From positions 2,426,501 to 2,490,500 of the forward strand of contig SMSO01000034.1 of assembly GCA_004764695.1 (NCBI GenBank): a stretch of 64,000 bases of DNA, read 5' to 3'. Made by a program: the position numbers and the translations under genes. Positions 20,195 to 64,000 of this stretch are shown here, piece by piece. The number at the start of each line of letters is the position of its first letter. Within the stretch, counting starts at the first letter, position 1. This stretch comes from Schizochytrium sp. TIO01 (Eukaryota > Sar > Bigyra > Thraustochytrida > Thraustochytriidae). Below the pieces are notes generated by a model. The model did not search any database and had not been told where the DNA came from. It was given only the letters and a program-made list of their open reading frames with translations.

Positions 20195-20253
<59 letters not shown>

Positions 20254-21009
20254 GGTGCCAATCAGCCAAGTGCGGTCTCTCATAAAGTGACACCTAAAAA
20301 AACTTGGATGGATCTTGCAAAAGCCAAACGAGCTAGGAGGCGCTTAATGATTAAATACTTAAACAGGTGCAAGCAGCGGTGGAGAGACGTGTACGACCCA
20401 TCAAGTGGTGGTGAGAGCAAAGTGATCAAGATTAAGATCACACATGCTGCTCGAGGCGCAGGTGCAGCAAGCGTCTATCTCGACGGATCGGACGCTGAGA
20501 AGAATACGCTCGTAAAAGGACTGCGACCAACCAATAAACTGTTCTTGGACTCCGTGATTGAAGAGCTCGATGGTCAGGACTCAGAGAACATTGCCCATGC
20601 CCTTAATGCAAAAATTGGGGATCCTGTTTCGATCTTTAGGATTGACCAGTTTAAGTTGAAGAAAACTCAAAAAAATGGAGACAAAAGAAAGTATAACTAT
20701 TCTGGCTACATACATTTTACAGCCTCTGATTTACCAGAAAATTCTTCAGATTATGTGAAGAACGAGGTCTCACGAGACAGAAACCCAGAGAAAGATGTAC
20801 CGAAACCTCGTGAAACAATAACATCACAAACTTGTCAACCATCGTGCGAGGCTGCAAAGTACAAAAGGTTGTTCAATGAAGAAAAGAAAAAGTCAGAACG
20901 ATTAAGATCCGAAAATTCAAAACTTCAAAAAGAGATGAACGACCTAAGAGAAAAAGAAGAGCGACTTCGACTCAAAATTGAGAACATATTGAATGCTGCC
21001 AACAATTGA
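19783..21009 (+). CDS. Acidic/coiled-coil protein, member 3 of an unrecognised three-gene family (shortest copy)
   Basis: 408 codons from ATG 19783; ATG 19840 is an alternative. The order is a basic/charged N-terminus, a Ser/Asn homopolymer at about 125-157 encoded by an AGC/AAC repeat, the family domain at about 183-312 (MIKYLNRCKQRW, RGAGAASVYL, RPTNKLFLDSVIEEL, IGDPVSIF, KYNYSGYIHFTASDL), then a Cys-x3-Cys pair near 351-355 and a C-terminal coiled coil of about 50 residues. It is the clearest relative of the gene at 16067-18220 and lacks that protein's long disordered region. The first 19 residues may be out-of-frame sequence, because an acidic frame that looks more like a family N-terminus overlaps here. 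Function is unknown; a homo- or hetero-oligomer through the coiled coil is likely. Confidence 0.8.
20155..20251 (+). repeat. AGC/AAC trinucleotide repeat inside the coding sequence
   Basis: About 32 triplets of AGC, AAC and close variants, encoding a Ser/Asn tract in family member 3. It is in frame, so length changes would only vary the linker. Confidence 0.9.
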
Positions 21010-22063
21010 AGGTTATTGTCACAATTGTCTTTCCTTATTACGAGGAATACACTTAAACACCTTGTAGGTAGTATTTTATATTGAATTTTTTTTTCCCCCT
21101 AAAACCATAATGTTTATTCCTCAATCATAGAAGCGCAGAGACTTGCTTGATTAAAAATGGGTTTTGTTGATGTAGTTATTTCTTGTGGTTTGTTTGTAAA
21201 CGTTTTCTCTCGGGGCGAGTCAGAAAACGTTAGCTACAGTTTCACGTGTTCTTATCGGCGATGCACCCTGCTATGTCAGAGTGCACGGCCCTTGTAAAGG
21301 CCATTGGTTCCTATGACACTCTTACCTTTTCATCTAATAGAGCCTTTTATACTGTGAGAGTATGCAAACACTATCAGTTTCTTGAAACCCCATTCAGCTT
21401 TGCTTCAGCTGCTTTCGTTTCGTGTTGAAGCGGTGCAGTTTCACTGCCATGCACTCACATTGGGTTTGTAGAAGTCTGAATGGTAGCTCTAGGTCCCAAT
21501 AGCCGCGGTGAAAGTTATGGGCTGGTTTGGTCCCTTTCGATACCTCCTATAAAGATAAGTGCGTCTGAAGGTAAAACAAACTATAACTTGAAGACAATAC
21601 AAATTAATTAAAAGTAAAAGATGCAAAATAAAATGCTCGCTCGTTCAGTCTTGAGATGGGAAAGTACAATAAGAACCAGTAGACCGTGTATGAGCGCAAA
21701 TGTAGAGGTTCCTAGAAAGTCGAGTTTCATTCCAAACTACTAGCCGGGCTAGTCATGATTGATTCTTCACCTCACTTTACAGTTACACCTACTGTTATAC
21801 CCATGTGCTATGCGGGAGATCTTCTGTATTTGATAGGCAAGCGTACGAGGGTCGAAAAGGCGCAGCGCGTGAAAGGAAGAAATGTCTCGAGAAGCTGGCA
21901 GTTATGATTTGCAAATAAGCCTCTGATGAAGAAGTCCTCCTGAAGAGTATTCTGCATGAAAGCAAAACCCGAGCCTCGGTTCGAGGCGCGCAGGGCTTCA
22001 AGTCGTTGTGAAGGTTTGATTGCTATTTTATTGCATTACGCTGCGTTCCATTGCGATACTAAT
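21010..22063. other. Intergenic, upstream of the first kinase gene
   Basis: About 1 kb with no supported gene. The frame of the kinase is open for a further 36 codons upstream of its chosen start (ATG at 21956), but that extension does not match the N-termini of the two paralogues. Confidence 0.5.
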
Positions 22064-28481: not shown

Positions 28482-30869
28482 ATGGACCCTATATCAACGC
28501 TATCGATGGTCATTCAGCTTGGCCAAAAGGCATCAGAACTTCTCCAGGATGCTAAAACGTGCAGACACAAAGCAGCGCATCTAAAAACCTTGCTTGATGA
28601 ATTCACTTCTCGCGTAGACCAGTTAGAAGATGCTGATGTTGACGTGTCGGTGCTGGAGTCAAACATGCGCGAAATTTATACAATGCTTAAGCCATATTTT
28701 AAGCACAATCGAGGCGTTGCTTCAAACATTATTCGCTTGCTTAACTCAAGGCACACATACGAAGCTCTTTGTGATGCAGAGCAGCGTCTGCAAACAATCT
28801 TGCAAATCTGCGCTATCGACCTTGCCTTACAAAACCGAGCACGAAGCATCGCATCTAGTGTTGATGAAGAGCAGTCTGACACAGAGGAGGCAGATCTTCA
28901 AGAGGACCATGATCACCTTGTTGAAATGCTCGGGGAGCTTCGTGGACAAGGCCGCCTAGATGACAGTCAGATTGACGCTGTCCTGGACTTGAATGAACAC
29001 CAGCAACAAGAACGTCTAAGCATTACTGATGTAATTCAAGGCCGCGTAGGAACCGAGGAGCAAAGCGAAATTGTTAAGTTGCTGCTTAAGCACCACCTAC
29101 AAGAAGAGCATGACGGCATCGTAACTCTAGATAAAAACATGCTTACGTTCAACGACCCAGAAGAAATGCTTGGCCATGGTCGATTTGGCGAAGTTGTTGG
29201 GGGAGTCTTACGAGATGAAGATGGCAAGGAAACCCCAGTAGCAATTAAGCGCGTGCGTCCGTCAAGCGAAGATCAAGAACTCATCGAAGAGAGAGCTCTC
29301 ATTTTCGAAGCTGATGGCTGGCAGGAATTACAACATCCCAACATTGTTTGTCTTTTGGGAGCGTGCATCATTGAAGAAAAGATCCACTTAGTCATGGACC
29401 ATTGTGATCTTTCTTTGCGCGACCTTTTGCGTGAGAGTAGCACAGCTGGGCCGACACAGCTTTCTGATGAAGATAAAGAGACCATTGCGCGCAGCATCGT
29501 TCGCGGTCTAGACTACTTACATGGTCAAGGTGTGATTCATCGCGATTTGAAACCTGCGACTGTACTTCTAAGTGTTGATTTTGGACTGGTTAAGTTGTCT
29601 GGATTCGGCCTCTCAACACGTACAACTATCGGTACAACCGCCGCAGACACTCTCTCAGCTGAGGGAACCTCCCTTTACATGGCTCCAGAAGTGATGACCC
29701 CGCCAGCTCGGTGGACAACTCGTGCAGATATTTATTCTTTGGGCCTAATTTTATGGGAAATCTACAATGCTCAAACACCTTACATGCACGTGGGTTCTGT
29801 CACAGAGCTAGAATCTCGTGTTATGAGTGGTGAACGGCCTTCAATTTCAGAAGAGATTGTCACGTCCAAATGGTTAGTACAGATAATTCAGCAATGCTGG
29901 CAACATGACCCGAAGCAGCGCCCTCGCGCCTCTCGGATACTGAAACGTTTCCTTTCCCGAGGTAAATCCAGTCGGCGCTCCACCCGAATCATTCGAGGTT
30001 TAGTCGCGACCATTACTCGCAGTCGTTTCCAGAGTACTTCCTATGGAGAAGAAAATGAACATATCCAGCAAATGCAAGATCTTCTCCGAGATATTGCCGA
30101 AGCTGAGGATCTTAGTGATACAGGCGAGTCGTTGAAAGCTCTGCATGCTATCCTGCAAAAAGAATATGAGGTTAATCTCTCAGAAAGTGTGCGATCTGAA
30201 GCGTGTACACGAGGTGTTCTTACGCGTATGCGCAGAGTTCTCAGTGATGAGGACTTAGATCCCTCGATTCTTGCCGAGGCAATGTGGATTTTGACCTATG
30301 CGCTTTCCGGAAGAGGAAATGCGATTCTCTTTCGCGAGGCTGCTGTTCGAGACTATCACTTTGGTGAGAGCATTCTTGAAATTCTACGAGGAGATATTGA
30401 AAATGTCGACTTGCAAACCGCAGGGTGCGCTATTTTGATGACCTTGGCTCATTCTCCTGCTCGTAATCAGCAAGTCCTAGGCATAGAACTCAATGCCTGC
30501 CAAGATTTGTATGAGATAATGCAAGCACATCCAAGTAATGCTGATGTTCAGCAGTGGGCATGTGGTGCTTTGTGGAATCTGGCAATGAATTCTTCAAATC
30601 GAGAATTCATGGCTCTTGATCTGAATGTCGGCCAGGTAATTCTCGAAGCGATGCAGTTTCACGAAAAGAATTTAGAGGTTCTTGAGAACGCATGCTGGGC
30701 TTTATACAATCTCGCGCAAGAAGACAGTGTCAAAGAGATTCTCTGCCAACAAGGAGCCGTTGCTGAAGTGCAGATTGCGCATCGAAGATACCCTACGCTT
30801 CGAGCTGCAGATCAGGCTCTTGAAAGGCTTGTTGAAAACCAAATCGAGGTCGTGGAAGGAGAAGTTTGA
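28482..30869 (+). CDS. Helical-bundle / TKL pseudokinase / 3 armadillo repeats (paralogue 2)
   Basis: 795 codons from ATG 28482, intronless. Residues 1-115 are the helical bundle (LGQKASELLQDAKTCRHKA), whose LGQ...C spacing resembles the MLKL four-helix/HeLo-like domain; this is a pattern-level match only. An acidic linker near 128-140 follows. The kinase domain is at about 226-485: GHGRFG at 231-236, VAIK lysine 256, HRDLKPAT at 353-360 with Thr where the metal-binding Asn is expected, and GFG at 374-376 instead of DFG. Two metal ligands are lost while HRD is kept, so catalysis is unlikely but nucleotide binding is possible. Only three armadillo-like repeats are present (about 640-780). It lies 2.4 kb downstream of paralogue 1 in the same orientation, consistent with tandem duplication. 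Confidence 0.92.
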   Translation: MDPISTLSMVIQLGQKASELLQDAKTCRHKAAHLKTLLDEFTSRVDQLEDADVDVSVLESNMREIYTMLKPYFKHNRGVASNIIRLLNSRHTYEALCDAEQRLQTILQICAIDLALQNRARSIASSVDEEQSDTEEADLQEDHDHLVEMLGELRGQGRLDDSQIDAVLDLNEHQQQERLSITDVIQGRVGTEEQSEIVKLLLKHHLQEEHDGIVTLDKNMLTFNDPEEMLGHGRFGEVVGGVLRDEDGKETPVAIKRVRPSSEDQELIEERALIFEADGWQELQHPNIVCLLGACIIEEKIHLVMDHCDLSLRDLLRESSTAGPTQLSDEDKETIARSIVRGLDYLHGQGVIHRDLKPATVLLSVDFGLVKLSGFGLSTRTTIGTTAADTLSAEGTSLYMAPEVMTPPARWTTRADIYSLGLILWEIYNAQTPYMHVGSVTELESRVMSGERPSISEEIVTSKWLVQIIQQCWQHDPKQRPRASRILKRFLSRGKSSRRSTRIIRGLVATITRSRFQSTSYGEENEHIQQMQDLLRDIAEAEDLSDTGESLKALHAILQKEYEVNLSESVRSEACTRGVLTRMRRVLSDEDLDPSILAEAMWILTYALSGRGNAILFREAAVRDYHFGESILEILRGDIENVDLQTAGCAILMTLAHSPARNQQVLGIELNACQDLYEIMQAHPSNADVQQWACGALWNLAMNSSNREFMALDLNVGQVILEAMQFHEKNLEVLENACWALYNLAQEDSVKEILCQQGAVAEVQIAHRRYPTLRAADQALERLVENQIEVVEGEV

Positions 30870-33648: not shown

Positions 33649-34265
<617 letters not shown>

Positions 34266-40723: not shown

Positions 40724-42954
40724 TCCTGTGCTGCTTCTTGCCTAACGTTTTATTTGCGAGTGCCAATCAAATCTTGGTTCACAAAAAATAATATAAAAAA
40801 TAAAAAATACAGCCAGGCTGAAGCCGGAGGAAGTGGCTTATGCTCAAACGAGCACTCGGCTGTCACTCTCTAGAGCCCGATATCCTGTATTGCAGAGGCT
40901 TAGATCCCTCCAAGCTTCAAGCTTTGCAGGCTTGCGGAAGCGACATATATTTTTCGTTATTTTTTATTGTTACGTATTTTAGCCTTTAATTGAAAGAAAC
41001 TAATCGTCTTCAATTTATAATTTAATTGATTAAAAGAAAAAGAAAAAGAAAAAGTGAAAAAGAAAAAGTAGAGAGGTAAAGCCGGAGCCCCCGAAGAGCA
41101 TGAGCTTGTGCTTGAGCTTGAGCTAGGCCGCCTCCATAAACTATGACGAACTAATCACCGGTGTGTCGAACCCTCTGGAGTGCCTGACCTCCTCTCTCCT
41201 GGTTTATTCGTTTATCTGCTTACTCGTTCGTTCATAGGTTTTCCCCATCATCCACGTGGCTCTTGGTGACTGCCTTGGCACACTCCCTCGCATGCGAAGA
41301 GTGTTGAGTCGTTGTGTACCATCAAGACTTCGATTCAACTTCCAGTCCCAGTAGTAGCTCTGACTTAGGCACGCACGTGAACAAGTCATTGCACGCACGT
41401 GAATAAGTCATTTGTAAATAGATCGCGATCGTAAATCGTCGTCACCGGTACTCTGGCTGCCTTATAAGAGCGATCAAATTGCAAATTGAGGGCTGCCAAG
41501 TTCATGCAGACTTGGTAGAGACTTTGGGCACGCGGCGGCGGAGTTTGGTCAATCGGGCGCTTGAGCGATTTTGCTCGAGGCGAAGAATTTTGCTTTGCTT
41601 GACGCTCTCGTTTCGTTTGACGATCAGAGATTTGGTATTCGCAACCAGGAAGCAAATCGTTGTTTGCATCGCTGGAATCAAGCGCGATTCTCCGTCAAGC
41701 GCGATGCGAGGAGGGCGTAGGGTATGTGGGCAGGCAGGCAGGCAGCGTGCGGCTTCAATCGAGCTTCGAGCTCAAGTTGGCGGGAGACATCCATCGAACC
41801 AGCGCGCCCGCGAGGTTGAGATTGAATGGTCAACTTCGTAAGTATGTTTGCGAGAGTCGATTTTCATTTGCTGTCTGAATGGGAGAGGTGTGCACCGTCG
41901 CATTTCTTTCGCGCAGCAAACATTTTTTGTTTTGGAATTTTTTGTTTTTGTATTTCTTGCTTTTCTAATTCTCTTATTGTTTTAGAATATGATCATACGT
42001 TTGTACTTTAACATTATTGTTTCACTTTTTTGTTTTTTATATTCACATGTATTTATATGTGTGCCATTGTCTTTCTTCAAAGCCTTCTTCCATAGAGTAG
42101 AAGACGGGTCGGATAATCGTTGAGAATTCAGATCTCGCCAGATGCGCGCAAGAGAAGTTTTGCCGACACTGGCAAGTCTACTCACAGCCACATATCTGTG
42201 CACGTGCCAATCAGTTGAGAAAGCAAAACTATGAAGCGAAGGTTTCGAAAGCTGAAAAGAACTCGGGAAAATATTTTGCAAAGAAAATACTTACCAACAG
42301 CACTTAAGAATAGGAAAAAGAAAAGAAAAAGCCGCAGCTCAACAATAGTGCTTTTAGCTATTCTGTAAAAAATGAAAATAAGATAAAATAAATAACAAGA
42401 TTAAGCTCGCTTCTCCCGGGGCCTCAGCTAAAAGCGAGTTGGTCCACATAACTACATTGATGCTACAGCCAGCGCTCGGGCTGAATATTCCAGCAATCGC
42501 GCGAGACATGGCCTTGCTCAAGTCGAAACAAACGGAAAAACTCACACTCAGTGATAACGCTCGAGCACGCAGAACTGGCGATTCGGAAGTGACAATCAAT
42601 CGATCTCTTTTTTTACCTTTTTAATTTTATTTTACTTTACTTTTTATTTACTTATAATATATCAGCCAATAGTGGGCTCCTCTGGCACGCGCTCGACGGA
42701 GCACTTTTATTAATACATTATAGCCCAAACAATAGCACTCACATGCGCCCACGCACACCAAAGTTTCGGAAAGTCTCGACGAGCTCTAGCAAATCCAGAA
42801 CTCGGAAACATTCTCATCACAATTTAGCAGGGCCTAGAAGTCCTCGTGCGTTTTGCGAAGTATCGGGTTGTCATATAAAGCTTTGAGTTGTGAAAGCGGA
42901 GTCAGTACTATTTACTTGGAGCAAGGGCGAACATAGGTGTCAGGGTGCACCACA

Positions 42955-45900
42955 ATGGACCCTCGAAAAGGGGCTGGGTTCGTGCAAGAGCTTGTATGCG
43001 AGGCCTCGAAATTGCTCAAAGGAGCAACCACATGTCATCGACGAGCAGCACATCTTGATGAAGTGCTTGCCATCCTGGCGGAGGAGCTCACGAAGCTAAA
43101 TGAGGACAACCGTGGCGTGGATATATCACTTGTTGAATCAGGTGTACGTGAGTTTGTGACAGAAATCCGGCCACATGTTGGAGAGCAACAAGGTGAAGTC
43201 TCACAAATCATTCGTCTTATGAACACGAGGCAAACGAGGTTTGCGCTCTCAGATGCTGAAAAACGCATCCGCAACACAATGAACATTTGTCAGATCGAGC
43301 CTACCTTGGCGCTAAGTCTCGACGATGCGGATGACATCGATCTAAGCGATGCTAGTGATGACTCCGCACAGCTTCTATCTATTCTCGAAGGTTTGCAGGA
43401 AGAAAATAAGATTGGAGAAGAATATTTGACAATCATCATCGACCTTTGCCGGGAAGATACGATGGTAGACTTTGATGCGATGCTTGATGGTCTTGCTGGA
43501 TCTCGCAGACAGCGACAGGCAGTAGAAAAACTTGCAACCTACCTGCTGCTGAGGCAAGAATCCGAAATCGCGTCTTTGTCTCCAGAGAGTGTGACTGTCA
43601 ATGAACCGATCGAAGTTCTTGGCCAAGGCCATTTTGGTCAGGTTCTTGCTGGTGTTCTGCAAGGCCCGAACGGTCGCAAAATTGATGTAGCAATCAAACA
43701 CATTCTTCCGTCTCGCGATCGACTTCAGCTCAAGGAGCAAAAGGCACTCATCACTGAAGCAGAACATTGGCGCGGCTTACAGCACCCGAACATTGTGTGC
43801 TTGCTGGGAACTTGTATTTTGCACAAGCGTCTTCAACTTATTATGGATAGATGTGACCTTTCTCTTGACGAGTTACTTTATGATACTGATGTGGCAAACT
43901 CTAATCCCCTGACTATGGAAGGCAAAGAAACCATTCTACGGGGAATGGCTCGAGGTCTCGATTACTTGCACAGCCAAGGCATTATTCACCGTGACTTGAA
44001 GCCTGCAAATGTCATGCTTAGCAAAGACCTTGGGCTTGTTAAGCTCACAGATTTTGGTTTAGCCACACACACACTCCCCAACATGAGCATTGCAGAAAAT
44101 ACCATCACCGTCGGCACTCCTGTATACATGGCCCCGGAAATTATTCACCCACCAGCTCGCTGGACAACTCGTGCAGATATTTACTCCTACGGCTTGATTA
44201 TGTGGGAAATCTATCACGGAGAATCTCCTTTCGGACGAATGACGTCCACCTCTGACCTTGAACAAAGAGTATTAAATGGTGACCGGCCTGTCATTTCAGA
44301 TGAACTCAATCTTCCAGCATGGGTCAAACAAACCATTAAACAATGCTGGCAGCATGTACCCGAAGACCGCCCTCACGCCGTGGACATTTTGAAAAAGTTA
44401 GAGTCTAATGGTGTTCGTTCTCGGCGCTCCACAAAAATTATTCGCGGAATTGTTTCTACCTTGGCTCGCACCAGAAGCCGCGGAAGTACCACTTTAGATT
44501 CAAAGGCGGGTATTGTACAAGAGGTACAAGGCCTTCTGCGCGACTTAACGGAAGGTGACGTTTCCGACGATCTTCTCCCAACACTCAGGGGTATCCAGCA
44601 AGCTTTGGAGAAAGAGCGGATGGCTGGGAATGGCAGCGAAGAACTCCGCACAGAAGTACGAAGCCGCGGTATTCTAATTCAAGTCCGCGGCATTCTCGAA
44701 AATGAATCCCACGAAGTTGAAACCTATACACAGGCTTTGCTTGTACTTCGTGATGCGTTGACTGGTACCAATGCACTTCCATTCCGCGAGGCAGCTGTGC
44801 AATCATACCACATGGGTGAAGCGGTTATCAACCTAATGCAACGATTTCGTGAGGATGGTGACCTTCAAGCAGCAGCATGCAGTGTCCTTGCATATCTTGC
44901 CTTTTCGCTAGAAGAAAACATGGAGATCCTTGGTCATCGCTTGAAGGTTGGTAATGATATTGTAGCTGCTATGGATAACCATCGCGAGAACCAGGATGTA
45001 CAAGAAGCAGCTTTGGAGGCCGTATACTATCTTTCTGTGAATGAAGAAAACCGTCAACGTCTTGTACATGAGTTAACCATCGGCGAGAAAATAATGACTG
45101 CAATGAAGACACACCCGGATAATGCAAGCCTTCAAGAATATGCATGCGGAGCAATTGCAAATCTTGCTGTTGACGAACAAAATCGCGAGATTCTTGTTCG
45201 TGTGCGCCATGCAGGAGAAGAAATTATAAAGGCCATGGAGACCCACATTGACCATGCCGGAGTTCAGGAAAAAGCATGTGGTGCAATTTGGAATATGGCA
45301 TACAACGAAAGCAACTGTGACTTTCTTGGTCAGAACCTCCATATTGGCGTTGAAATACTTGCCTCTATGCAGGCTCATCGAACCAATCCTGGTGTACAGC
45401 GAATGGCATGTGGCGCGATTGCTACCTTGTGTGACAATGAGCGAAATCAAATTACCTTTGGCCAGGAGCTGCACGCCGGAAATGAAATACAGGCAGCTAT
45501 GAGGGAGCATGTCAATAACCCCGCAATTCAGGAGCAAGCATGCAGGGCTATCTGGAAACTGGCTTGCAATGAGCGTAATCGTGAGATTTTGGGTCAACAG
45601 CTGAACATTGGCGCTGAGATCGTTGCAGCTATGCGAACACAACGCAGCAGTGTTTCTGTTCAAGAAAAGGCATGCGGTGCGATATGGCAGCTTGCCGAAA
45701 ATGAACATAATCAGGGAACTCTTGGGCAGCAGCTCAAGGTTGGAACTGAAATTGTTGCAGCTATGAAAAGACATCGTGCCAGCGCAGAAGTTCAAAAGGC
45801 TGCATGCAGTGCTCTTGCAAGCCTTGCAGCAAATGACCGAAACAAAGAAATTCTTGGTCAAGAGTTAAACGCAGGCAAGGAAATTATTGCAGCGATGCAA

Positions 45901-46089
45901 GCACATCGTGCAAACGCTGCTGTACAGGAGGAAGCTTGCAGTGCACTCACAAATCTTGCTCTGAACGGATCGGTAAAGACACTTCTACGACGCCAAAGTG
46001 CTGCTCAAGAAGTCAAGCTTGCCCACGAGCGATTTCCCTCGCTTGAGCCAGCGAAAAGAGCCCACTCAAAACTCAAGTCCTTTTTCTGA
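42955..46089 (+). CDS. Helical-bundle / active-looking TKL kinase / 9 armadillo repeats (paralogue 3)
   Basis: 1044 codons from ATG 42955 (the frame is open upstream only from a GTG at 42937). Residues 1-115 match the N-terminal helical bundle of the two paralogues (TCHRRAAHL). The kinase domain at about 218-475 keeps every catalytic element: GQGHFG 223-228, VAIK lysine 248, HRDLKPAN 345-352, DFG 366-368 and APE 393-395. By family knowledge this should be an active Ser/Thr kinase of the TKL group. A shared linker leads to nine armadillo-like repeats (about 635-1030, core ACGAIWxLAxNExN) and a short C-terminal helix that ends like the paralogues (ERFPSLEPAKRAHSKL). Intronless, same orientation, 12 kb from paralogue 2. 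A natural hypothesis is that it phosphorylates or heteromerises with the two pseudokinase paralogues; nothing here proves it. Confidence 0.93.
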   Translation: MDPRKGAGFVQELVCEASKLLKGATTCHRRAAHLDEVLAILAEELTKLNEDNRGVDISLVESGVREFVTEIRPHVGEQQGEVSQIIRLMNTRQTRFALSDAEKRIRNTMNICQIEPTLALSLDDADDIDLSDASDDSAQLLSILEGLQEENKIGEEYLTIIIDLCREDTMVDFDAMLDGLAGSRRQRQAVEKLATYLLLRQESEIASLSPESVTVNEPIEVLGQGHFGQVLAGVLQGPNGRKIDVAIKHILPSRDRLQLKEQKALITEAEHWRGLQHPNIVCLLGTCILHKRLQLIMDRCDLSLDELLYDTDVANSNPLTMEGKETILRGMARGLDYLHSQGIIHRDLKPANVMLSKDLGLVKLTDFGLATHTLPNMSIAENTITVGTPVYMAPEIIHPPARWTTRADIYSYGLIMWEIYHGESPFGRMTSTSDLEQRVLNGDRPVISDELNLPAWVKQTIKQCWQHVPEDRPHAVDILKKLESNGVRSRRSTKIIRGIVSTLARTRSRGSTTLDSKAGIVQEVQGLLRDLTEGDVSDDLLPTLRGIQQALEKERMAGNGSEELRTEVRSRGILIQVRGILENESHEVETYTQALLVLRDALTGTNALPFREAAVQSYHMGEAVINLMQRFREDGDLQAAACSVLAYLAFSLEENMEILGHRLKVGNDIVAAMDNHRENQDVQEAALEAVYYLSVNEENRQRLVHELTIGEKIMTAMKTHPDNASLQEYACGAIANLAVDEQNREILVRVRHAGEEIIKAMETHIDHAGVQEKACGAIWNMAYNESNCDFLGQNLHIGVEILASMQAHRTNPGVQRMACGAIATLCDNERNQITFGQELHAGNEIQAAMREHVNNPAIQEQACRAIWKLACNERNREILGQQLNIGAEIVAAMRTQRSSVSVQEKACGAIWQLAENEHNQGTLGQQLKVGTEIVAAMKRHRASAEVQKAACSALASLAANDRNKEILGQELNAGKEIIAAMQAHRANAAVQEEACSALTNLALNGSVKTLLRRQSAAQEVKLAHERFPSLEPAKRAHSKLKSFF

Positions 46090-47719: not shown

Positions 47720-50562
47720 TGTCTTGACCTTTATACCAAAAAAATTACTCTTCCCTCTATCACCAATGCCACAAGGGCTTTCTCACAGCTCCAGTGAGTG
47801 TTGAAGACTTGATGATTTGCTTCAGAGTTTTTGGTCTGCTGTGCCTCCTAAGCTGTCTGCGCTCTCTTGGTATCATGAATGTTGACAAGGTACTCTAGTT
47901 CTACTGTTCTACCCAGTTTTTATGACGGTAGCTATACTATCATAGAGTGCTCTTACCACCATCTAAAACTTCGCTCTTAGTATTCTTTTTAGCACTGAAA
48001 AGTCTCACGAAAGAGGGAAATTGGGATGTGCACCTCACTAATTAACACTATGTCATTATTACGATTACTATAGTAGGGTAAGACCAAGCATGCACGTGGG
48101 TTTGTCATGCGCACGCCCAACTTTTCTGTAGTCATTTGTATCAGTCATTTTCATCGAGGGGGGGTAACATTGCTTAGGCTTTCACCTCGCTCTAACTACC
48201 TAGATGGGTATCTAGGTAACAGTGACTTCAAATTTAGATTGTTTTGGATTGAGTCTTTACCCAAGCTAACTGGCTACCTATAAGTCGTACACCCCGTGGG
48301 GCTTGGGTGTGTATATTGCTTTGCGAGGGAGTGCATGAACGTGGGAGACGATAGTCATATGTGCGCTGTTTGTAGATTAAACATATAGTACTACAATAGC
48401 AACCATATATTTTTGTATTGTAAGGTACAGTTCCAAGATTGCACCGCGTGCCTGGAAAAGAGATCTGATCTGAGCAGGTACCTTCATAGAGGAATTGCTA
48501 AGTAATCATGATGACGAATTGTTTTAGCCCAACATAATTTTTTTAACTTATAACCTTTTTATCTTGAGGAGGAAGAGATCGTTGGGTGCCAACTTGCACA
48601 CCCTACCTCATTAAAATCTATTCACAGTTAGTAAAACAAACTTAGGCCAAAACAATCACTCCTAGGTACGAAGAAGTATTTAATACTTAGGTTGGTAAAT
48701 AAAAGAAACCTCACTAGCTTTAAATCATCATGATAACTCATATGTCTTAGTGTTTCAAGGTTTCAGAGTCAGGCCAGCTAAGGCTTGCAACTCTGCCGAA
48801 AATGGTAGTGTTGGCGTGTTAGTTGCAAAGCAGTTTATCGATTACTAAGGAAAATAAAAGCCACAACAAGAAAATTAGATTTAGTTCTTGCTCTAAGGAC
48901 GTGCATTGATTCAATCTGAACGTCTCTACTGTTTTGTGAAATACAGTTACCAGTGCAGTTTTTGTTCAAGTTTCCGTTCTAATCTTGATTATTCTTGAAA
49001 TAGGGAACTTCCAGTTAGTGCACATATTTCTCAGACAGAGTTGTCAAGACTTACGTTTGCGAAAGATTGTCCATCTGGCCGATGCAATATCAGCAATATC
49101 TCAGACATTGCCATGTTTGAGTGTAAAAGAACCAAACTGGAATTGGGATGTTTGAGTGCAAAAGAACCAAACTGGAATTGGGATGTTTGAGTGCAAAAGA
49201 ACCAAACTGGAATTGGGATGTTTGAGTGCAAAAGAACCAAAATATCTCGATAATGGTGGGTGCAGTATTTGGTGGGTGAATTTTACCCTATGCACGAAAT
49301 TGAGGTCGATCTCGGACTTTGAAGTATGAGACAAGAAGATGGAGAGAACATGATATGCGGGCTTGTAAGCATTTCTACCATGGGTTTTTGGAACACGGCT
49401 TAGTATACGTTTAAATAACAAGTTACTCGATAGGCTCTTGCATGAGGAATAATCATTTGTTATTGACCATATCTATAGCTGGACACCACAGCAAGGTGGC
49501 TAAGGGCCTTGATTAGGCGTCCAGGTTATTATAACATTTGCCTGGCCGATGCCATTCCGTAAGTCTGTTTTGCACAGTACACATAATGCAAAATGCTTTA
49601 TTTTGGATGAACTCCCTTCACAATGGGTGCTCATGTATGCGGGAAGCAGACGGAGGTCTATGCAGAAATTGTGATCAATGGAGAATGAAGTGACGAAACT
49701 CACACGTTTTCGTGGTTCCCTAATCTATTATTATTATTCTCTTCGTAGTTTACGTGGTATATAATGCACGAGATGCAGTCTAAAGGCACCCAAGAATCTA
49801 GACTCTTAGTATATTTAAATAACTCCCTAGACCGCTACAGAGGACTCACCATGTGTTCTTGCATTTGTTTACTCTTTGCTATCAAAAGCCAGTCTACGTT
49901 TCAGACCAAAAAAAAAAAATTACAAAGAAAGGATCGTTTGATGAAAATTGAACGGAGACAAGAATATCAAATTTTAAATTTATAGTAAAGTAATAATTGT
50001 TCCGCTGTTCTGTGCTTTCCCCAGGAAACAAAAACAAGAGGACATTGTTGTCGGGTAGTTGAGGTACGCGAAGAGAGAGGGGGAGAGGAGGGCTTGACAT
50101 ACTTGACATATTTCAAATATACTAATATATAAATATACTACAGTAGAGACCATAATTATTTTATGCTTGTCTTTATCATGATTCTAGGTACAAATCCTTT
50201 GATGTGCAGTGACCCCTATCTCAAAACGGGACATGAAAGCTGTATTTTTGGACTATAAAAGGCTGAGGTATTAACTCCACCAGGGCCATTATTCTTTGCT
50301 TTTAAAATATGGTTAGTATGGTTAGTATGATTAGTACAACCGTCTAAAGTTAAAGCTTTAAAAAAAAATTAAAAATAGAGAAGATGGGGTACTAAGAAAG
50401 GGTTTTATCTTGATTGAAATCCCCAAAACCTACCTAAAATTCGATGCAGTCACATTCTTCATATAATTGAAAAACAGATTTCAACAATATAGACAGTATG
50501 TAAACTACTAATGCAGGATTCCGTAGAAGCTCCTCAAGGTAAAAGTATTTGATAGAGCACCT
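47720..50562. other. Intergenic stretch between the two membrane-protein genes
   Basis: About 2.8 kb, AT-rich. It contains a 35-bp tandem repeat (listed). Other open frames (49500-49703, 49764-50109) are short and unremarkable. Confidence 0.5.
49116..49241 (+). repeat. 35-bp tandem repeat, 3.6 copies
   Basis: Units at 49116-49150, 49151-49185, 49186-49220 and a partial one from 49221 are identical except for one base in the first. Because 35 is not a multiple of three, the minus strand is open in more than one frame with a frame-shifted repeating peptide; this looks like a minisatellite, not a gene. Confidence 0.9.
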
Positions 50563-54753: not shown

Positions 54754-57700
54754 ATGTCGCATCACCCAGAGGTCATCACAGCACTTGAAGCGCTTCGTCA
54801 GGGTTCAACAAATATAACGTAGGTTTACATTGCATTGTCTCCTTTCGAAGTGGTGCTATACGAAATAGAAACCGAGAGGAATTACCAAATAGGATGACCG
54901 ACTTTTAACAGTATGCATACGTGCAATATGTTGTTTATGAAAAATTAATTGAGCCTACAGCCTTGACAAAGCCGAAATCGGTGACGAGGGCGCGAAAGCA
55001 CTTGCGGCAGCCTTGGAAAACCATCACTCACTTACAGAACTTGGGTAAGTTATCTAGTTTTTTGGACACGTTTGACACTTGAGCCAAGTTTTGTTGTTCG
55101 CTAGCCCAATATGATGCATGTTGGGGTTGACAATTGAATCACTTGTGCCAACACCTATGTTATTGTCAATTAGTTTAATCTTGGGCGTGCCTACTTCTAC
55201 GTAGACAAGTAAAAAACGCGGCAACTAAAGATGGCATCTGGAGCTAAACGACTGACGGATATGTGTATTATAATATGCTTGCTTGCACTGTGGTTCTTGC
55301 GATTGGGGAATTCACGCAACAGTCTTTATTCAAATAAGATTGGTGATGAGGGCGCGAAAGCACTTGCGTCAGCCTTGGAAAACCATCACTCACTTACAAA
55401 ACTTGAGTAAGTTATCTAATTGTTTGGACACGTTTGAAACCTGAGTCAAGTGTTGTAGTTCGCTAGCCAAATACGATCCCAGTTGACATTGCAAATTGAA
55501 TCACTTGTGCCAACATCTATGTTACTGTCAATTGGTTTGCTCTTTAGCGTGTCTGCCTCTGCGTAGACAGGTAAAAATGAGGCAACAAAAGATGGCATTT
55601 GGAGCTAAACCACTGACGCATTTGTGTGTTTGAAACATGCTTGCAAGTGTTACTTTCGATTGATTTATCATAACATCAGTCTTGCCTATAATGAGATTGG
55701 TGATGAGGGCGCGAAAGCACTTGCGTCAGCCTTGGAAAACCATCACTCACTTAAAGAACTCTCGTAAGTTATCTGATTGTTTGGGCACGTTTGAAACCTG
55801 AGCCAAGTTTTGTTGTTCGCTAGTCAAACATGATGCCAGTTGAGCTTGTAAATTAAATTACCAGTGTCAACATCTATGCTATTGTCCATTGGTTTGATCT
55901 TGAGCGTGTCTACTTCTACGTAGACAGGTAAAAATGAGGCAACAAAAGATGGCATTTGGAGATAAACGACTGACGTATTTGTGTGTGTGACACATGCTTG
56001 CAATGTGTTACTTGCAACTGATTGATCATAACGGCAGTATTGGCGGGAATAAGATTGGTGAGGAAGGCGCGAAAGCACTTTCGTCAGCCTTGGAAAACCA
56101 GCACTCACTTACAGAACTTGAGTAAGTTATCTAGTTGTTTGGACACGTTTGAAACCTGAGCCAAGTTTTGTAGTTCGCTATCCAAATATGATGCAAGCTG
56201 CGGTTGCAAATTGAAGCACTTGCGCCCACATCTATGTTACTGTCAATTGGTTTGATCTGGGCCGTGTCTACCCGTGTTAGACAGGTACAAAGCGAGGCAA
56301 CTAAAGATGGCATTTGGAGCTAAACGACTGACGTAGTTGAGTCTTGCAACATGCTTGCAATGCGTTACTTTCGATTGATTTATCATAACATTAGTTTTGC
56401 CTATAATGAGATTGGTGATGAGGGCGCGAAAGCACTTGCATCAGCCTTGGAAAACCATCACTCACTTACAATACTCTTGTAAGTTATCTAATTGTTTGGA
56501 CACGTTTGAAACCTGAGCCAAGTTTTGTTGTTCGCGAGCCGAATATGATGCATGTTGGGGTTGCAAATTGAATCACTTGTGTCAACATCTATGTTACTGT
56601 CGATTGGTTTGATCTCGAGCGTGTCTGCCTCTGCGTAGACAGGTAAAAAACGAGGCAACTAAAGATGGCATTTGGAGCTAAACGACTGACGTATTTGAGT
56701 CTTGCAACATGCTTGCAATGCGTTACTTTCGATTGATTTATCATAACATTAGTCTTGCCTATGATGAGATTGGTGATGAAGGCGCGAAAGCACTTGCATC
56801 AGCCTTGGAAAACCATCACTCACTTACAAAACTTTAGTAAGTTATCTAATTGTTTGGACACTTTTGAAACCTGAGGCAAGTTTTGTAGTTCGCGAGCCGA
56901 ATATGATGCATGCTGGGGTTGCAAATTGAATCACTTGTGTCAACATCTATGTTACTGTCGAGTGGTTTGCTCTTCAGCGAGCCTGCCTCTGCGCAAGTTT
57001 TGTAGTTCGCGAGCCGAATATGATGCATGTTGGGGTTGCAAATTGAATCACTTGTGTCAACATCTATGTTACTGTCGATTGGTTTGCTCTTCAGCGTGTC
57101 TGCCTCTGCGTAGACAGGTACAAAACGAGGCAACTAAAGATGGCATTTGGAGCTAAACGACTGACTTGTTTGTGTCTTGCAACACGCTTGCAATGTGTTA
57201 CTTTCGATTGATTTATCATAACATCAGTCTTGCCTATAATGAGATTGGTGATGAGGGCGCGAAAGCACTTGCATCAGCCTTGGAAAACCATCACTCACTT
57301 ACATCACTCTAGTAAGTTATCTAATTGTTTGGACACGTTTGAAACCTGAGGCAAGTTTTGTAGTTCGCGAGCCGAATATGATGCATGTTGGGGTTGCAAA
57401 TTGAATCACTTGTGTCAACATCTATGTTACTGTCAATTGGTTTGATCTCGAGCGTGTCTGCCTCTGTGTAGACAGGTAAAAAACGAGGCAACTAAAGATG
57501 GCGTTTCGAGCTAAACGACTGACTTGTTTGTGTCTTGCAACACGCTTGCAATGTGTTACTTTCGATTGATTGATCATAACATCAGTCTTGGCTGGAATAT
57601 TATTGGTGAAGAGGGCACGAAAGCACTTGCGTCAGCCTTGGAAAACCATCACTCACTTACAAAACTTTAGTAAGTTATCTAATTGCTTGGACACGTTTGA

Positions 57701-60700
57701 AACCTGAGCCAAGTTTTGTTGTTCGCTAGCCCAATATGATGCATGTTGGGGTTGCAAATTGAATCACTTGTGCCAACATCTATGTTACTGTCAATTGGTT
57801 TGCTCTTTAGCGTGTCTACCTCTGCGTAGACAGGTAAAAACGTTGCAGCTAAAGATGGCATTTGGGGCTAAACGACTGACTTGTTTGTGTCTTGCAACAC
57901 GCTTGCAATGTGTTACTTTCGATTAATTGATTATAACGTCAGTCTTGGCAAGAGTAATATTGGTGATGAGGGCGCGAAAGCACTTGCGGCAGCCTTGGAA
58001 AACCATCACTCACTTACAGAACTTGGGTAAGTTATCTGATTGTTTGGACACGTTTGACACTTGAGCCAAGTTTTGTTGTTCGCTAGCCCAATATGATGCA
58101 TGTTGGGGTTGACAATTGAATCACTTGTGCCAACACCTATGTTATTGTCAATTAGTTTAATCTTGGGCGTGCCTACTTCTACGTAGACAAGTAAAAAACG
58201 CGGCAACTAAAGATGGCATCTGGAGCTAAACGACTGACGGATATGTGTATTATAATATGCTTGCTTGCACTGTGGTTCTTGCGATTGGGGAATTCACGCA
58301 ACAGTCTTTATTCAAATAAGATTGGTGATGAGGGCGCGGAAGCACTTGCGTCAGCCTTGGAAAACCATCACTCACTTACAAAACTTGAGTAAGTTATCTA
58401 ATTGTTTGGACACGTTTGAAACCTGAGCCAAGTGTTGTAGTTCGCTAGCCAAATACGATCCCAGTTGACATTGCAAATTGAATCACTTGTGCCAACATCT
58501 ATGTTACTGTCAATTGGTTTGCTCTTTAGCGTGTCTGCCTCTGCGTAGACAGGTAAAAATGAGGCAACAAAAGATGGCATTTGGAGCTAAACCACTGACG
58601 CATTTGTGTGTTTGAAACATGCTTGCAAGTGTTACTTTCGATTGATTTATCATAACATCAGTCTTGCCTATAATGAGATTGGTGATGAGGGCGCGAAAGC
58701 ACTTGCGTCAGCCTTGGAAAACCATCACTCACTTAAAGAACTCTCGTAAGTTATCTGATTGTTTGGGCACGTTTGAAACCTGAGCCAAGTTTTGTTGTTC
58801 GCTAGCCAAATATGAGGCCAGTTGGCGTTGCCAATTGAATCACTTGTGCCAACATCTATGTTACTGTCAAATGGTTTGCTCTCTAGCGCGTCTACCATTC
58901 CTTATATTAAAATAAAAGTCGGGGCAACTGAAGATGGCATTTGGAGCTAAAGAACTAACGCATTTGTGTTTGGAACATGCTTGCAATGTGTTACTTTCGA
59001 TTGATTGATAACTTCAGTCTTATCAATAATCAGATTGGTGATGAGGGCGCGAAAGCACTTTCGTCAGCCTTGGAAAACCATCAGTCAATTACAAAACTTT
59101 AGTAAGTTATCTGATTGCTTGGAAACGTTTGAAACTTGAGCCAAGTTTTGTAGTTTGCTAGCCAGACATGATCCCAACTGGATTGGTGAATGAGAATATT
59201 TATGTTTATTGCTATGTAATTGTCCATTAGGTTGTCATTGAGCGCGTCTTCCATTCCTTATATTAAAATAAAAGTCGGGGTATCTAAAGTTTGCATTTGG
59301 AACTAAATGACTGACGTATTTGTGTGTTTGCCACACCCTTGCAATGTGTTACTTTCGATTGATTGATCATAACTTCAGTCTTGGCGAGAACAATATTGGT
59401 ACTGAGAGCGCGAAAGCACTTGCGTCAGCCTTGGAAAACCATCACTCACTTACAGCAATCTCGTAAGTTATCTAATTGTTTGGACACGTTTGAAACCTGA
59501 GCCGAGTTTTGTTGTTCGCGAGCCGAATATGATGCATGTTGGAGTTGCAAATTGAATCACTAGTGTCGACATCTATGCTATTGTCAATTGGTTTGCTCTT
59601 TAGCGTTTCTACCTCTGCGTAGACAGGTAAAAATGAGGCAACTAAAGATGGCGTTTGGAGCTAAACGACTGACTTATTTGTGTGCAACACGCTTGCAATG
59701 TGTTACTTTCGATTGATTGATCGTAACGTCAGTCTTGTCGGGAATAATATTGGTGTTGAGGGCGCGAAAGCACTTGCGTCAGCCTTGAAAAACCATCACT
59801 CACTTACAGCAATCTCGTAAGTTATCTAATTGTTTGGACACGTTTGAAACCTGAGCCGAGTTTTGTTGTTCGCGAGCAGAATATAATGCATGTTGGAGTT
59901 GCAAATTGAATCACTAGTGTCGACATCTATGCTATTGTCAATTGGTTTGCTCTTTAGCGTTTCTACCTCTGCGTAGACAGGTAAAAATGAGGCAACTAAA
60001 GATGGCGTTTGGAGCTAAACGACTGACTTATTTGTGTCTTGCAACACGTTTGCAATGTGTTACTTGCGATTGATTGATCATAACATCAGTCTTGGCGTGA
60101 GTAATATTGGTGATGTGGGCGCGAAAGCACTTGCGTCAGCTTTGAGAAACCATCACTCACTTACAGAACTCTAGTAAGTTATTTAAGTGTTTGGACACGT
60201 TTGAAACCTGAGCCAAGTGTTGTAGTTCGCTAGCCAAATACGATCCCAGTTGTCATTGCAAATTGAATCACTTGTGCCAACATCTATGTTATTGTCAATT
60301 GGTTTGCTCTTTAGCGCGTCTACCTCTGCGTAGACAGGTAAAAATGAGGTAACTAAAGATAGCATTTGGAGCTGAACGGCTGACTTGTTTGTGTCTTGCA
60401 ACATGCTTGCAATGTGTTACTTTCGATTGGGGGATGCACGCAACAGTCTTACCGGGAATAATATTGGTGATGAGGGTGTAGCTGCTCTGGCAGCAGCCTT
60501 GGAATACCATCACTCACTTACAACACTGATGTAAGTTATTGGATCAGTTTTACACGTGTGTAACCTGGGCTATGCTTGCTGTACTTTTTAAACTGTTTCA
60601 AGTTGAAACGATTACTTAATCCATGATAAATTAAATCTAACTGCCAAATGATTAAATAAAGAGGAATTGTAAGGAGATAGAGGGCTGACTTTCATGCTTT

Positions 60701-63700
60701 GTATGTCTGATGTATCTTTCTATGACAGACTTCAAAACAACCTGATCAGATCAATTGGCGCTAAAGCTTTGGCTTCGGCACTAAAAAAGAGCCTGTCACT
60801 GAATAATCTTGAGTAAGTTCTTGCAGATAGCATACGAGCCTGGATACAATACTTATTTGCCATCATGTTCACCGTCTGAAAGAGCATCCTAGGCTATTTT
60901 TAAAGATCAATTTATGGAAAGGAAGTTACTAAAGGAAACCAAATAATTGATTGATTTGAGCATTAGATAAAAAGCAAGATGACTAACTTTGAAGGTATTG
61001 GCGCACGGCCTGGCATAATTTATACGATTCATTAGTCTCGCCTATAATTCTGTCGATGACAGCGGCGCAAAGGCACTAGCTCGAGCGTTGAAACATAACG
61101 TATCACTAGAATTTCTCGGGTAGGTTTTCTTATTTCTCAAGGTTATATATATGAAGTATAGGTGAAGCTATCCTCATCGTTTCAAGAAACGGTTTATTGG
61201 GTTATTCTTATTTGCATCTGTGCTTTTGGCTTGATGTTCTTTTTCAAGTCAAGTGAAAAGCAAGACTAAAGGTATACTTGGTAACTGACTACCGAGGACT
61301 TGTGAATTGCTTTCTATCATATAAATGATCAACAGTTTGCAAGGTAATAATATAGGCCCATCAGGCTTCACGGCATTGGCCGATGCACTGGAGGAAAATG
61401 ATACTATTTTGCTAGGGTAAGTTTCGTACCCGTTTCTTTTGGGTCAAATCCAGAAAAGCGTTAAGGTTGAAGAAGCCAAAGAGAAATCTGCAATCATTTA
61501 AACTGACCTCAAGTAATATAATAGGCTTCATCCTGATACTATCCCTGAGGCCACGAGACTTCGCATTGGCGATCGCTTTAGGTTTTCCGAAGAAATTATG
61601 GAATATGCCGAATTTTCGAAGTCCGCAAGAAATGCACTTTCAAAAGATCAAACGGCACGGTGGGGCCGAGCAAAGCTGATGGTGGTCGGAAAAGCAGGTG
61701 CTGGCAAGACTTCGACCATCCGGACATTGCTCGGTAAAGATTTTAAATCAGAGCACGACTCGACTATTGGTGTAGACTTAAAGCTCATTCGCACTAAAGA
61801 CTGGCAAGAGCAAGAGACGGGCTATCGGTCGGCTGATCTCTGTGAGGTTCTCGTAAAGCATCAGCTCTTTGGGGAACGCATGAGTCTACCGAAGCCTGTT
61901 GTCCCCAAACGAAGTGGAAGGTCACTAACCAGGCTGTTTGCACCTTGGAAAAAAGACAAGCCGAAACCAAAGATTGTCGAGGATGAGGTTGCAAGATCTT
62001 TCAATCTGGCTGTAAAGCTTGAGTTTCAAGAGAAAGGGCGTGCAAAAGTCGACCGAGAGATCAGCTTCACGGTGTGGGATTATGGCGGACAGGAAGTTTT
62101 CTATGCTTTGCATCACCTGTTCTTAACCAACTATGGCGTGTGTGTCATTGTTTTCGATATGCGAGAAGTGGTTGGAAAGGAAAATTTCCAGAACCATCCA
62201 GATTACGAATCCATGCAGGACGAGGAGGTAGCGTTGAAGACCATACAGTTTTGGCTAGACTCGATAAGCTTACATGCAGAAGGGGCAGATGTAGTTCTTG
62301 TCGGGACATACCTCGACGCCATGGGCAATCTCGAGGAAGACCTAAAGCTCGTCAACTCCAGGTTAGAGGATGTCTTGCGCCAGGCTAATAAGGACCTTGC
62401 ACTTGTGCACAACCTGGGAGATAGTCTGTGCTATTATCCTCTGGACAACACTGAACGGCAAGACGAAAGGCGTTGCAAAATGCTACGTGACTCTCTCTGG
62501 AAAACAGCTGTCTCAAAAGATTACGTTCAGGAGAAGGTGCCATTGCGGTGGTCTCTGTGTTTGGAGCACATGTTCTTATCAAAGAAAGATTATATGGAAC
62601 TTGATGCCGTGAAGGAGCTTGCAACGAATACCTGTAAGATTTCAGAAGATAGGGTACCAGAAATGTTGGACTTTATGCACCAGCTGGGTGTCATTGTGCA
62701 TCTAACCTCCACCGAAGCCCTAAAAAAATACGTGATCCTGCACCCTCAATGGCTGTTGAATAACTTGACATACGTAATTTGTGACCCAAGACACATGGAC
62801 GTGCACGCCACAAAATTGAAGAAAAGAGTTATGCAACCAATCTCACCCATTAGTTTGTTTCGTGATATAGAAAAGTGGGAGAAGCGTGGCATTGCAACCT
62901 CTGCATTCTTATCACAGGTCTGGAAGGATTCACATCTAGTGGTCTATTTTACCGAACTCATGATTGAAATGCTTCTTGCGAGCTACAGTCCTTGGATCCC
63001 AGACTTGGACGAAAAAGGCGATTTGCTAGTGCCGAGTTTGTTAATGCCAATATCCAAGGCTGAGCTGAATACACTCCTTGAAAAGTTCGACAACGCAGCT
63101 CTGGCATATATCCAGTTTGACATTTTACCCAGAGGGGTCTTTCAACGCTTTATTGCTGGGATGGTTTCGACTTTTGATAAAGGGATGGTGAGTATTAAAC
63201 AAGACAAGGTGTATGCAGATGCAGCAAGCATCGTCTTTGACGGAATAGATGTCCTCCTTCTTGTGTGTGAGGCTGAACGTCGCATTGTCCTTCGCTTCTC
63301 AGAGGACGATGCCACAGTATCGACGCCGGGAGGGTTATCCAACTGCATAGAGCTGCTGCAGTCTCAAATCATGTTGCTCGATGAAGCTTTTATGCAGCAA
63401 AACTTGAAAACCAAGCTAGTTTTAAGCTGCGACGGAACTACAAACGAGGAGAGCTGTGGCTTCCTTGAGGCTCTTACGATCGCTCGACGTGGAAAGTGTA
63501 TGTCTGTTGGAAATACCGAAACTTTAATGCAATCATCTTTCTCAGCGTTCTTCGCAAACGAAGAAGAGATCAAGGGGATGAATAGAAGGTTAACGCCACA
63601 TTGCCAGAAAACTTATGACGTTTTCTTATCACACTCTTGGGGCAAGGACAAATCTATCCACAAGCTTGCGCGCGACGTGGGTGATGTCCTACAGAAAGAG

Positions 63701-64000
63701 TATGGTATTTCGTGTTGGCTCGATGAAAAAGAAGTAAAACATGGTGACATTTCGACAGTTTTGGCACAAGGAATCAATGACTCTACTTTGGGTGTCGTCT
63801 TCGTCTCACGGGAATACATGGATAAGGTAAACTCTGACCCAATAAATGAGCCTGAACAGTTCTGCCGGGCTGAATTTAAGTACATGGTCAAAACGATGTC
63901 TATTCGTCGTTTGATTCCAGTTGTAGTTGAAGAAGAAATGCTGGAACAAAGAGAATGGAAAGACCTTTTCGCGTACCTTTGGGAGGGGACCCCCAGATAT
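54754..64000 (+). CDS. LRR-Roc-COR-TIR (ROCO family) protein, 21 exons seen, 3' end outside window
   Basis: Exon 1 is 54754-54818 (ATG, 65 bp). Exons 2-19 are 84 bp each and exon 20 is 81 bp, one LRR per exon; all junctions are phase 2 with GT..AG ends. Exon 21 is 61525-64000 and still open, for 1378 codons in total so far. After the LRRs comes a Roc GTPase: G1 GKAGAGKTS at 61688-61714 and G3 DYGGQE from 62078; the G4 position reads GTYLDAM, not NKxD. There is a long insert between G1 and G3. A COR domain follows from about 62530 (VPLRWSLCLEHMFLSK, ILHPQWLLNNL). A TIR domain starts near 63613 (YDVFLSHSWGKD, ISCWLDEKEV). Glu in FCRAEF (63872-63874) sits where catalytic TIR enzymes carry their Glu. 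Likely a cytosolic sensor/switch. An earlier 5' exon cannot be excluded. Confidence 0.9.
54970..55800 (+). repeat. Three-exon block (LRR 1-3) duplicated at 57952-58782
   Basis: The segment covering most of exon 2 through exon 4 and part of the next intron recurs 2982 bp downstream as exons 10-12. Exons 4 and 12 are identical. Exons 3 and 11 differ by one base (Lys to Glu). Introns 55407-55679 and 58389-58661 differ by a single base. The left breakpoint lies inside the LRR exon, after its variable first codons. Confidence 0.9.
56876..57109 (+). repeat. 117-bp direct duplication inside one intron
   Basis: Copies at 56876-56992 and 56993-57109 differ at only a few bases and explain why this intron is 391 bp instead of about 274 bp. 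Confidence 0.9.

Follow-up and report, generated by a model that had tools for sequence, protein, structure and literature searches.

Uniform One-Repeat Exons with a Few Variable Codons in a ROCO Gene Family of Schizochytrium sp. TIO01

Gene structure at the locus

We analyzed a 64-kb stretch of the Schizochytrium sp. TIO01 genome, C33:2426501-2490500 (here called the window), taken from an assembly of 64.06 Mb in 37 contigs. Its forward strand carries a gene in which a start exon is followed by 19 exons, each encoding one leucine-rich repeat (LRR), and then by an exon encoding ROC, COR, and TIR domains. The LRR exons lie at 54961 to 61416; 18 of the 19 are 84 nucleotides (nt) long and the last is 81 nt, all are in phase 2 and open, and every one is flanked by AG and by GTAAG or GTAGG (the exon search in the window was restricted to phase-2 candidates). 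A first-pass annotation of this DNA had described the same array, and our search recovered its exact coordinates, splice signals, and open frames. Splicing all 19 exons yields a chain without a stop codon that is continuous with the ROC-COR-TIR frame. The features of the gene, all on the + strand, are as follows.

54754 to 54818, +, start exon, MSHHPEVITALEALRQGSTNI plus the split codon; relatives have similar start exons, e.g., MSDHPRVVAALEQLQNGATTLK
54961 to 55044, +, LRR exon 1, 84 nt, phase 2
55323 to 55406, +, LRR exon 2, 84 nt
55680 to 55763, +, LRR exon 3, 84 nt
56038 to 56121, +, LRR exon 4, 84 nt
56395 to 56478, +, LRR exon 5, 84 nt
56753 to 56836, +, LRR exon 6, 84 nt, TA at its end
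57228 to 57311, +, LRR exon 7, 84 nt, TA at its end
57586 to 57669, +, LRR exon 8, 84 nt, TA at its end
57943 to 58026, +, LRR exon 9, 84 nt
58305 to 58388, +, LRR exon 10, 84 nt
58662 to 58745, +, LRR exon 11, 84 nt, same sequence as exon 3
59018 to 59101, +, LRR exon 12, 84 nt, TA at its end
59379 to 59462, +, LRR exon 13, 84 nt
59733 to 59816, +, LRR exon 14, 84 nt
60090 to 60173, +, LRR exon 15, 84 nt, TA at its end
60447 to 60530, +, LRR exon 16, 84 nt, border of the homogeneous part
60729 to 60812, +, LRR exon 17, 84 nt, diverged, first base A
61036 to 61119, +, LRR exon 18, 84 nt, diverged
61336 to 61416, +, LRR exon 19, 81 nt, diverged
61525 to 64000, +, ROC-COR-TIR exon, from an inferred acceptor at 61525; its frame continues beyond the window and stops about 0.2 kb farther on
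54986 to 55823, +, internal duplication, copy 1 (units 1 to 3), 5 mismatches in 838 nt
57968 to 58805, +, internal duplication, copy 2 (units 9 to 11), offset 2982
56876 to 57110, +, 117-bp direct repeat in two copies, within intron 6

Each 84-nt exon opens with the third base of the split codon x1 and closes with the first two bases of the next x1, which places the intron inside the strand xLxLxxNx of each repeat; we number the codons of a repeat 1 to 28, with the split codon as 1. The homogeneous portion of the array comprises exons 1 to 16 and introns 1 to 15, and Tandem Repeats Finder reported array periods of 357 to 358, well beyond chance expectation. The 838-bp duplication that relates units 1 to 3 to units 9 to 11 is recent.

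Pfam matches on the last exon included Roc at 65.6 bits (cut-off, 27), COR-A at 51.1 (35.3), and TIR_2 over its cut-off. A ROC GTPase domain is thus followed by COR, as in ROCO proteins, and LRRK2 chains were among the matches. The spliced LRR part is of the ribonuclease-inhibitor type, with 13 LRR_6 stretches in Pfam, and its nearest solved LRRs by sequence were the ribonuclease inhibitor 3tsr (the best match) and NLRP proteins, e.g., NLRP14 (9w2m); this likeness concerns the repeats only, and we claim no orthology. The product is a probable recognition protein, an intracellular LRR-ROC-COR-TIR protein, and a cytoplasmic sensor is the natural reading of its domains: the 19-repeat horseshoe would be the sensor, the ROC-COR GTPase the switch, and TIR the output. 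Its function would be immune or non-self recognition.

A family of arrays in the genome

Elsewhere in the genome, seven full-length matches to the ROC-COR-TIR exon were found, at 40 to 56% identity, one of them split into two pieces, the shorter at 61%. Counting the window, all eight loci carried 84-nt phase-2 one-LRR exons in the stretch read (the search in the paralogues was limited to phase-2 exons of 75 to 99 nt). A two-unit query from a related array, C32:39k, gave 204 matches, and among the matches listed, identities were 83 to 98% besides the query itself; these counts are lower bounds and correspond to at least 54 candidate clusters, 28 of which were scored. Separately, C4:245000-264999 contains clustered ROC-COR genes; one stretch has 21 look-alike LRR exons, and the following one has five.

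Four arrays whose 3' flanks were read (C14, C5, C7:1.04M, and C23) lack ROC-COR-TIR and have in its place a conserved tail of about 100 residues; this short-tailed class is the larger one. The one copy of this tail that was scanned had no Pfam match up to an E value of 0.1. The tail has 52 matches in the genome (two belong to a single place, and the weakest ones are partial), and 34 of them lie no more than 150 kb from a contig end, ten being counted by distance from the contig start only. On contigs of known length above 1 Mb, 21 of 39 tail matches were near ends, where 6.8% of the sequence qualifies. Contig ends may not be telomeres, however, and the arrays themselves may break assemblies; at the single contig end inspected, that of C23, the telomere repeat was absent.

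Variable codons in a conserved framework

Mean nucleotide diversity per site (pi) in the window array was 0.163 in exons 1 to 16 and 0.158 in the introns (14 of the 15 used). The first-pass annotation had taken the introns to be as alike as the exons, which holds for these means, but the exon mean mixes hypervariable codons with a near-frozen framework. Codons x27, x1 (split), x3, x4, and x6 had a pi of 0.55 at positions 1 and 2, against 0.059 at positions 1 and 2 and 0.093 at position 3 of the framework. From the LRR consensus and PMC11378527, we take these codons to lie on the concave strand, where they are predicted to face the binding partner.

The variable codons were chosen on the window array and then tested without alteration on six others (C30:62k, C32:39k, C13:4.08M, C7:1.03M, and two stretches of C4, designated C4a and C4b). 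Codons x1, x3, and x4 were variable in all six (pi, 0.30 to 0.73), and x6 was variable in four (0.27 to 0.59), weak in C4a (0.17), and 0 in C4b; x27 was low outside the window array (0 to 0.29). When intron columns were drawn at random, none of 20,000 draws reached the mean pi of x1, x3, x4, and x6 in five of the seven arrays, window included, and 27 and 11 draws of 20,000 reached it in the two smallest (6 and 5 exons). With x27 included, the numbers were 0, 0, 0, 2, 298, 0, and 76 of 20,000 for the seven arrays; the test left out one or two diverged exons at the edges of four arrays.

Intron pi was below that of the window in four of the six comparison arrays (0.023 to 0.108) and above it in two (0.197 and 0.246). 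The window array, which had been called young, is thus older by its introns than most of these relatives. In the young arrays, introns were 94 to 98% identical and the variable codons were near saturation. The introns of C32:39k differed by 2.1 to 2.3% on average; nonsynonymous differences per site (pN) at x3, x4, and x6 reached 0.65, about 30 times the intron value, and synonymous differences per site (pS) in the framework were 0.00.

Individual codons differed in character. Base entropy at x3 was 1.82 to 1.89 bits at all three positions, adjoining near-invariant bases, a pattern that looks more like randomization. Codon x9 was TCA in 34 and GAC in 27 of 65 cases; these codons are three steps from each other, and intermediates were few. 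The final base of codon 28 was tied to the split codon, and this pattern and that of x9 both look like old alleles moved by recombination. The third base of x4 was C in 51 of 65 codons, while its first base varied. Over codons 3 to 6, we counted 108 distinct 12-nt blocks in 139 exons from 11 loci, with only two blocks common to more than one locus; control blocks of the same length numbered 26 (framework) and 41 to 51 (intron), with 3 to 6 shared between loci. All 139 of these framework-matched exons were open with AG and GT intact, in a search that copies with more than 16 mismatches at the 53 framework positions would escape.

Uncoupling from the adjacent intron

We compared 1,596 pairs of units, using 57 of 59 introns from six loci. 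The variable bases of the next exon differed at 6.4 to 7.2 of 12 positions in every class of intron similarity, and framework differences climbed from 1.0 to 3.0 across the same classes. Among the six unit pairs with only one or two intron differences, which are not independent in that three involve the same C32 units, four differed at 9 to 12 of the 12 variable bases and two at none; the class with more than 20 intron differences held 315 pairs. The variable codons are therefore uncoupled from the adjacent intron. Introns were almost equally alike between loci (p, 0.052) and within arrays (0.046).

Linkage between sites, measured as r2, was short in range: 0.315 at 1 nt, 0.158 at 2 to 3 nt, and 0.026 at 4 to 6 nt, against 0.017 by chance, with values of 0.04 to 0.05 at 7 to 50 nt and 0.017 to 0.028 beyond. 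In the window array r2 decayed more slowly, from 0.27 to 0.10 to 0.14 beyond 25 nt (chance, 0.07).

Near-identical array pairs and a conversion-like tract

Three pairs of arrays on different contigs, C14/C31, C5/C30, and C23/C7, were 99.1 to 99.8% identical. These contigs may represent alleles or second haplotypes kept in the assembly, or recent copies. No second copy of the window array was found in the assembly with a two-unit query (very common words skipped). Neither the number nor the order of exons changed in any of the three pairs (9/9, 11/11, and 6/6 in the overlap), at odds with the expectation of the first-pass annotation that a young array should still be unstable. Nor had any variable codon changed in the 9, 11, and 6 shared exons, in pairs 0.02 to 0.14% apart outside the tract described below, which speaks against fast present-day change, though with limited power.

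C14 and C31 differed at 34 positions, 27 of them within 150 bp that run from the exon 3 framework into the intron of that exon. Elsewhere differences were few: seven outside this tract in C14/C31, one in C5/C30, and five in C23/C7, of which one falls in an exon framework codon. When both versions of the tract were compared with the units of six loci, the C14 version agreed at 157 of 161 positions with unit 7 of the same array, and the best match of the C31 version reached only 139 of 161; on this basis, a sister unit most likely served as the donor that overwrote the tract in C14. Its three exon changes are silent, and all nine exons encode the same residues in C14 and C31. Codons x3 to x9 lie outside the tract. 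Codon x1 lies inside but reads AA in C14, C31, and unit 7 alike; the tract is therefore uninformative on x1 and shows only that x3 to x9 were spared.

Frame safety of exon joins

One exon per repeat, combined with a phase-2 intron, would provide a cut in the middle of the variable strand that is nearly always safe for the reading frame. The first base of the exon was T in 108 of 111 exons from ten arrays; a split codon of the form NNT is never a stop, and exons in such arrays are thus freely joinable. The T may be a simple inheritance from the founding unit. In the window, the view that exons can be skipped without breaking the frame stood for 166 of 171 ordered exon pairs, whose joins are free of stops, but failed for the remaining five, all onto exon 17, which create TAA. 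A direct join of the TA-ending exons 6, 7, 8, 12, and 15 to the ROC exon would give TAG, the first base of that exon being G if the acceptor at 61525 is correct.

Other features of the window

Three + strand frames, at 21944-26101, 28476-30869, and 42937-46089, are alike by eye, each with an N-terminal region, a protein kinase, and then repeats; the two scanned, at 21944 and 42937, had Pfam protein kinase and ARM_LRRK2 matches, and the three appear to form a family adjacent to the ROCO gene. The + strand frames at 16007-18220 and 19759-21009 have a common block by eye, like RYLNRC..RW and GAGAASxYL; the former gave no Pfam match at an E value of 0.001. About 154 copies of TTTA occupy 33650-34265 and are the source of several false open frames, and 3.7 tandem copies of a 35-bp unit, with 98% matches, lie at 49113-49241. 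An open frame on the - strand at 1-2406, cut at the window edge, resembles a fatty acyl-AMP ligase by eye.

Discussion

The explanation that fits best, and that we consider somewhat more probable than its alternatives taken together, is that conversion and duplication homogenize the units and that selection preserves diversity at the binding face. Exon-intron units would be copied and homogenized, within and between loci, by unit duplication and frequent short-tract gene conversion. Conversion tracts shorter than a unit would renew introns and framework and leave x3 to x9 untouched, and selection for diverse recognition would keep three to five codons per repeat different on the predicted concave strand. 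In this scheme both the high frequency of conversion and the role of selection in maintaining the variable codons are inferred.

Several observations weigh against this explanation. The pN/pS ratio in x3, x4, and x6 was not clearly above 1, at 1.9 (1.1 to 9.8) in the window, 2.2 (1.0 to 3.7) in C7, and 0.3 to 1.3 in the other five arrays; these NG86 rates, being saturated at the variable codons, are a rough guide only. pS was also raised at these codons (in C32, 0.57 versus 0.02 in introns), which is not predicted by plain positive selection on new mutations; saturation, old alleles, or targeted change could each cause the raised pS and a ratio not clearly above 1. If old linked alleles were present, diversity should form a shoulder around the variable codons, and none was clear except at the third position of codon 2. 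In six further arrays the introns are short and old, with a pi of 0.31 to 0.56, near saturation, and the variable codons are at 0.42 to 0.73, so that the exon-intron contrast is weak or absent there. Finally, only one conversion-like tract was seen, and a fault in the assembly could account for it.

The units might instead stem from a recent burst of amplification, with strong positive selection acting in place, little gene conversion, and each new repeat selected to differ. The close likeness of introns between loci to that within arrays would suit a burst, as would x4, which keeps its third base while its first varies. We nevertheless regard it as unlikely: four of the six unit pairs with nearly identical introns already differ at most of their variable bases (although two differ at none), pN in C32 stands some 30-fold above the intron value, pS is raised along with it, and the tract in C14/C31 is conversion-like. 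Targeted diversification, in which the variable codons are themselves rewritten, by mutation or from a template, and introns are alike through the youth of the units, would account for the near-saturated entropy of x3, third base included, beside near-invariant bases, as well as for the raised pS, the lack of a clear shoulder, the scant linkage beyond 3 nt, and the sharing of only 2 of 108 variable blocks between different loci among the 11 read. However, the variable codons are unchanged in all three near-identical array pairs, and x9, almost only TCA or GAC, and the tie of codon 28 to the split codon both resemble inherited alleles, which leaves such a process rather improbable. Still less probable, in our estimate, is its most far-reaching form, a dedicated process that rewrites three to five codons per LRR exon and spares adjacent bases, which would give a heterotrophic protist a programmable repertoire across dozens of arrays.

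The first-pass annotation had proposed an unstable array that yields receptor variants by gain, loss, or skipping of exons, through germline or somatic recombination or alternative splicing. The mostly frame-safe junctions and the recent 838-bp duplication are consistent with this proposal, and splice variants are reported for brown-algal ROCO genes (PMC11378527). With copy number constant in the three near-identical pairs, and with the TA-ending exons giving a stop when joined to exon 17 or, at the inferred acceptor, to the ROC exon, we think it quite doubtful. Collapse or false expansion of repeats during assembly could also produce look-alike units, since arrays of this kind are difficult to assemble and the three contig pairs resemble second copies. 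Yet the differences sit at set codons, none of the 139 framework-matched exons is broken, paired contigs agree on exon order, and introns within the window array are on average about 15% apart, making an artifact very improbable indeed. Three further candidates were set aside. Mobile introner-like introns of the window type are disfavored, the two-unit query having found no genome copy outside the array (common words skipped); exchange of cassettes between arrays is disfavored as the main source of variable codons, given the two blocks shared among 11 loci; and random hypermutation of whole units is rejected, with framework and introns conserved.

Brown-algal ROCO genes are reportedly the subject of work by Zambounis et al. 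in 2012. According to the available part of Teng et al. 2024 (PMC11378527), these genes have 72-nt phase-2 LRR exons with a 24-residue step, splice variants, and positively selected sites at 14, 16, 18, and 19. The likeness that the first-pass annotation had seen is borne out: both systems have ROC-COR, an N-terminal LRR array, and one phase-2 LRR per exon, and the selected sites have the same 2-2-1 spacing as x27, x1, x3, and x4 here, spacing alone being compared. In contrast, the exon here is 84 nt, or 28 residues, rather than 72 nt, and we therefore do not file the gene in the brown-algal group of ROCO genes with shuffling exons. TIR after COR is a further difference from the genes as described in that part of the source, where homogenized introns and chromosome-end placement are not described in terms of concerted evolution, gene conversion, or subtelomeres. 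A search for PF00504 (light-harvesting) gave no match in the 64-Mb genome; by this indirect evidence, the host is apparently non-photosynthetic and not a brown alga.

In Tetrahymena, the available part of Xiong et al. 2019 (PMC6564038) describes phase-2 LRR exons of 90 bp that number in the tens of thousands; the youngest LRR genes occupy pericentromeric and subtelomeric positions, and a LINE-like element lies beside the units. A strictly kept exon length, phase 2, intron-exon units in young genes, and a very large number of exons are shared with the family described here. The exons are 90 bp there and 84 nt here, however, and ROC-COR-TIR is not mentioned, nor is positive selection a term used, in that part of the source. 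A search of a limited literature collection on LRR-exon, phase-2, and subtelomeric arrays returned only PMC6564038, which is no proof that the present family is undescribed. In Podospora HNWD genes, concerted evolution keeps the NLR repeats near-identical, with high internal conservation, apart from four hypervariable codons at the interaction face (PMC12222747, PMC4986451); likewise, the repeats here are near-identical save for a few codons on the inferred interaction face. The Podospora repeats are WD40, ANK, and TPR in NLR proteins, whereas here they are LRRs in a ROCO protein, and the uncoupling from introns has no counterpart in the available text of PMC4986451, where the term intron is absent. 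The present family joins traits of the brown-algal, Tetrahymena, and Podospora systems. Other likenesses include TALE repeats with variable residues, lamprey VLR, the 84-bp LRR exons of vertebrate NOD genes, and adenine-directed retroelement mutagenesis.

The gene is another case of one LRR per phase-2 exon, after brown algae and Tetrahymena, but its main interest lies less in movable exons than in the units of the young arrays, which are almost wholly uniform within and between loci except at a handful of codons. In the study of immune and allorecognition genes, it is an open problem how the repeats of a receptor can be uniform enough for folding and recombination and yet different at the binding site. 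In this family the introns supply an internal yardstick for each repeat, so that the limit of homogenization can be measured codon by codon, and the many arrays could serve as replicates for separating conversion tract length, selection, and targeted mutation.

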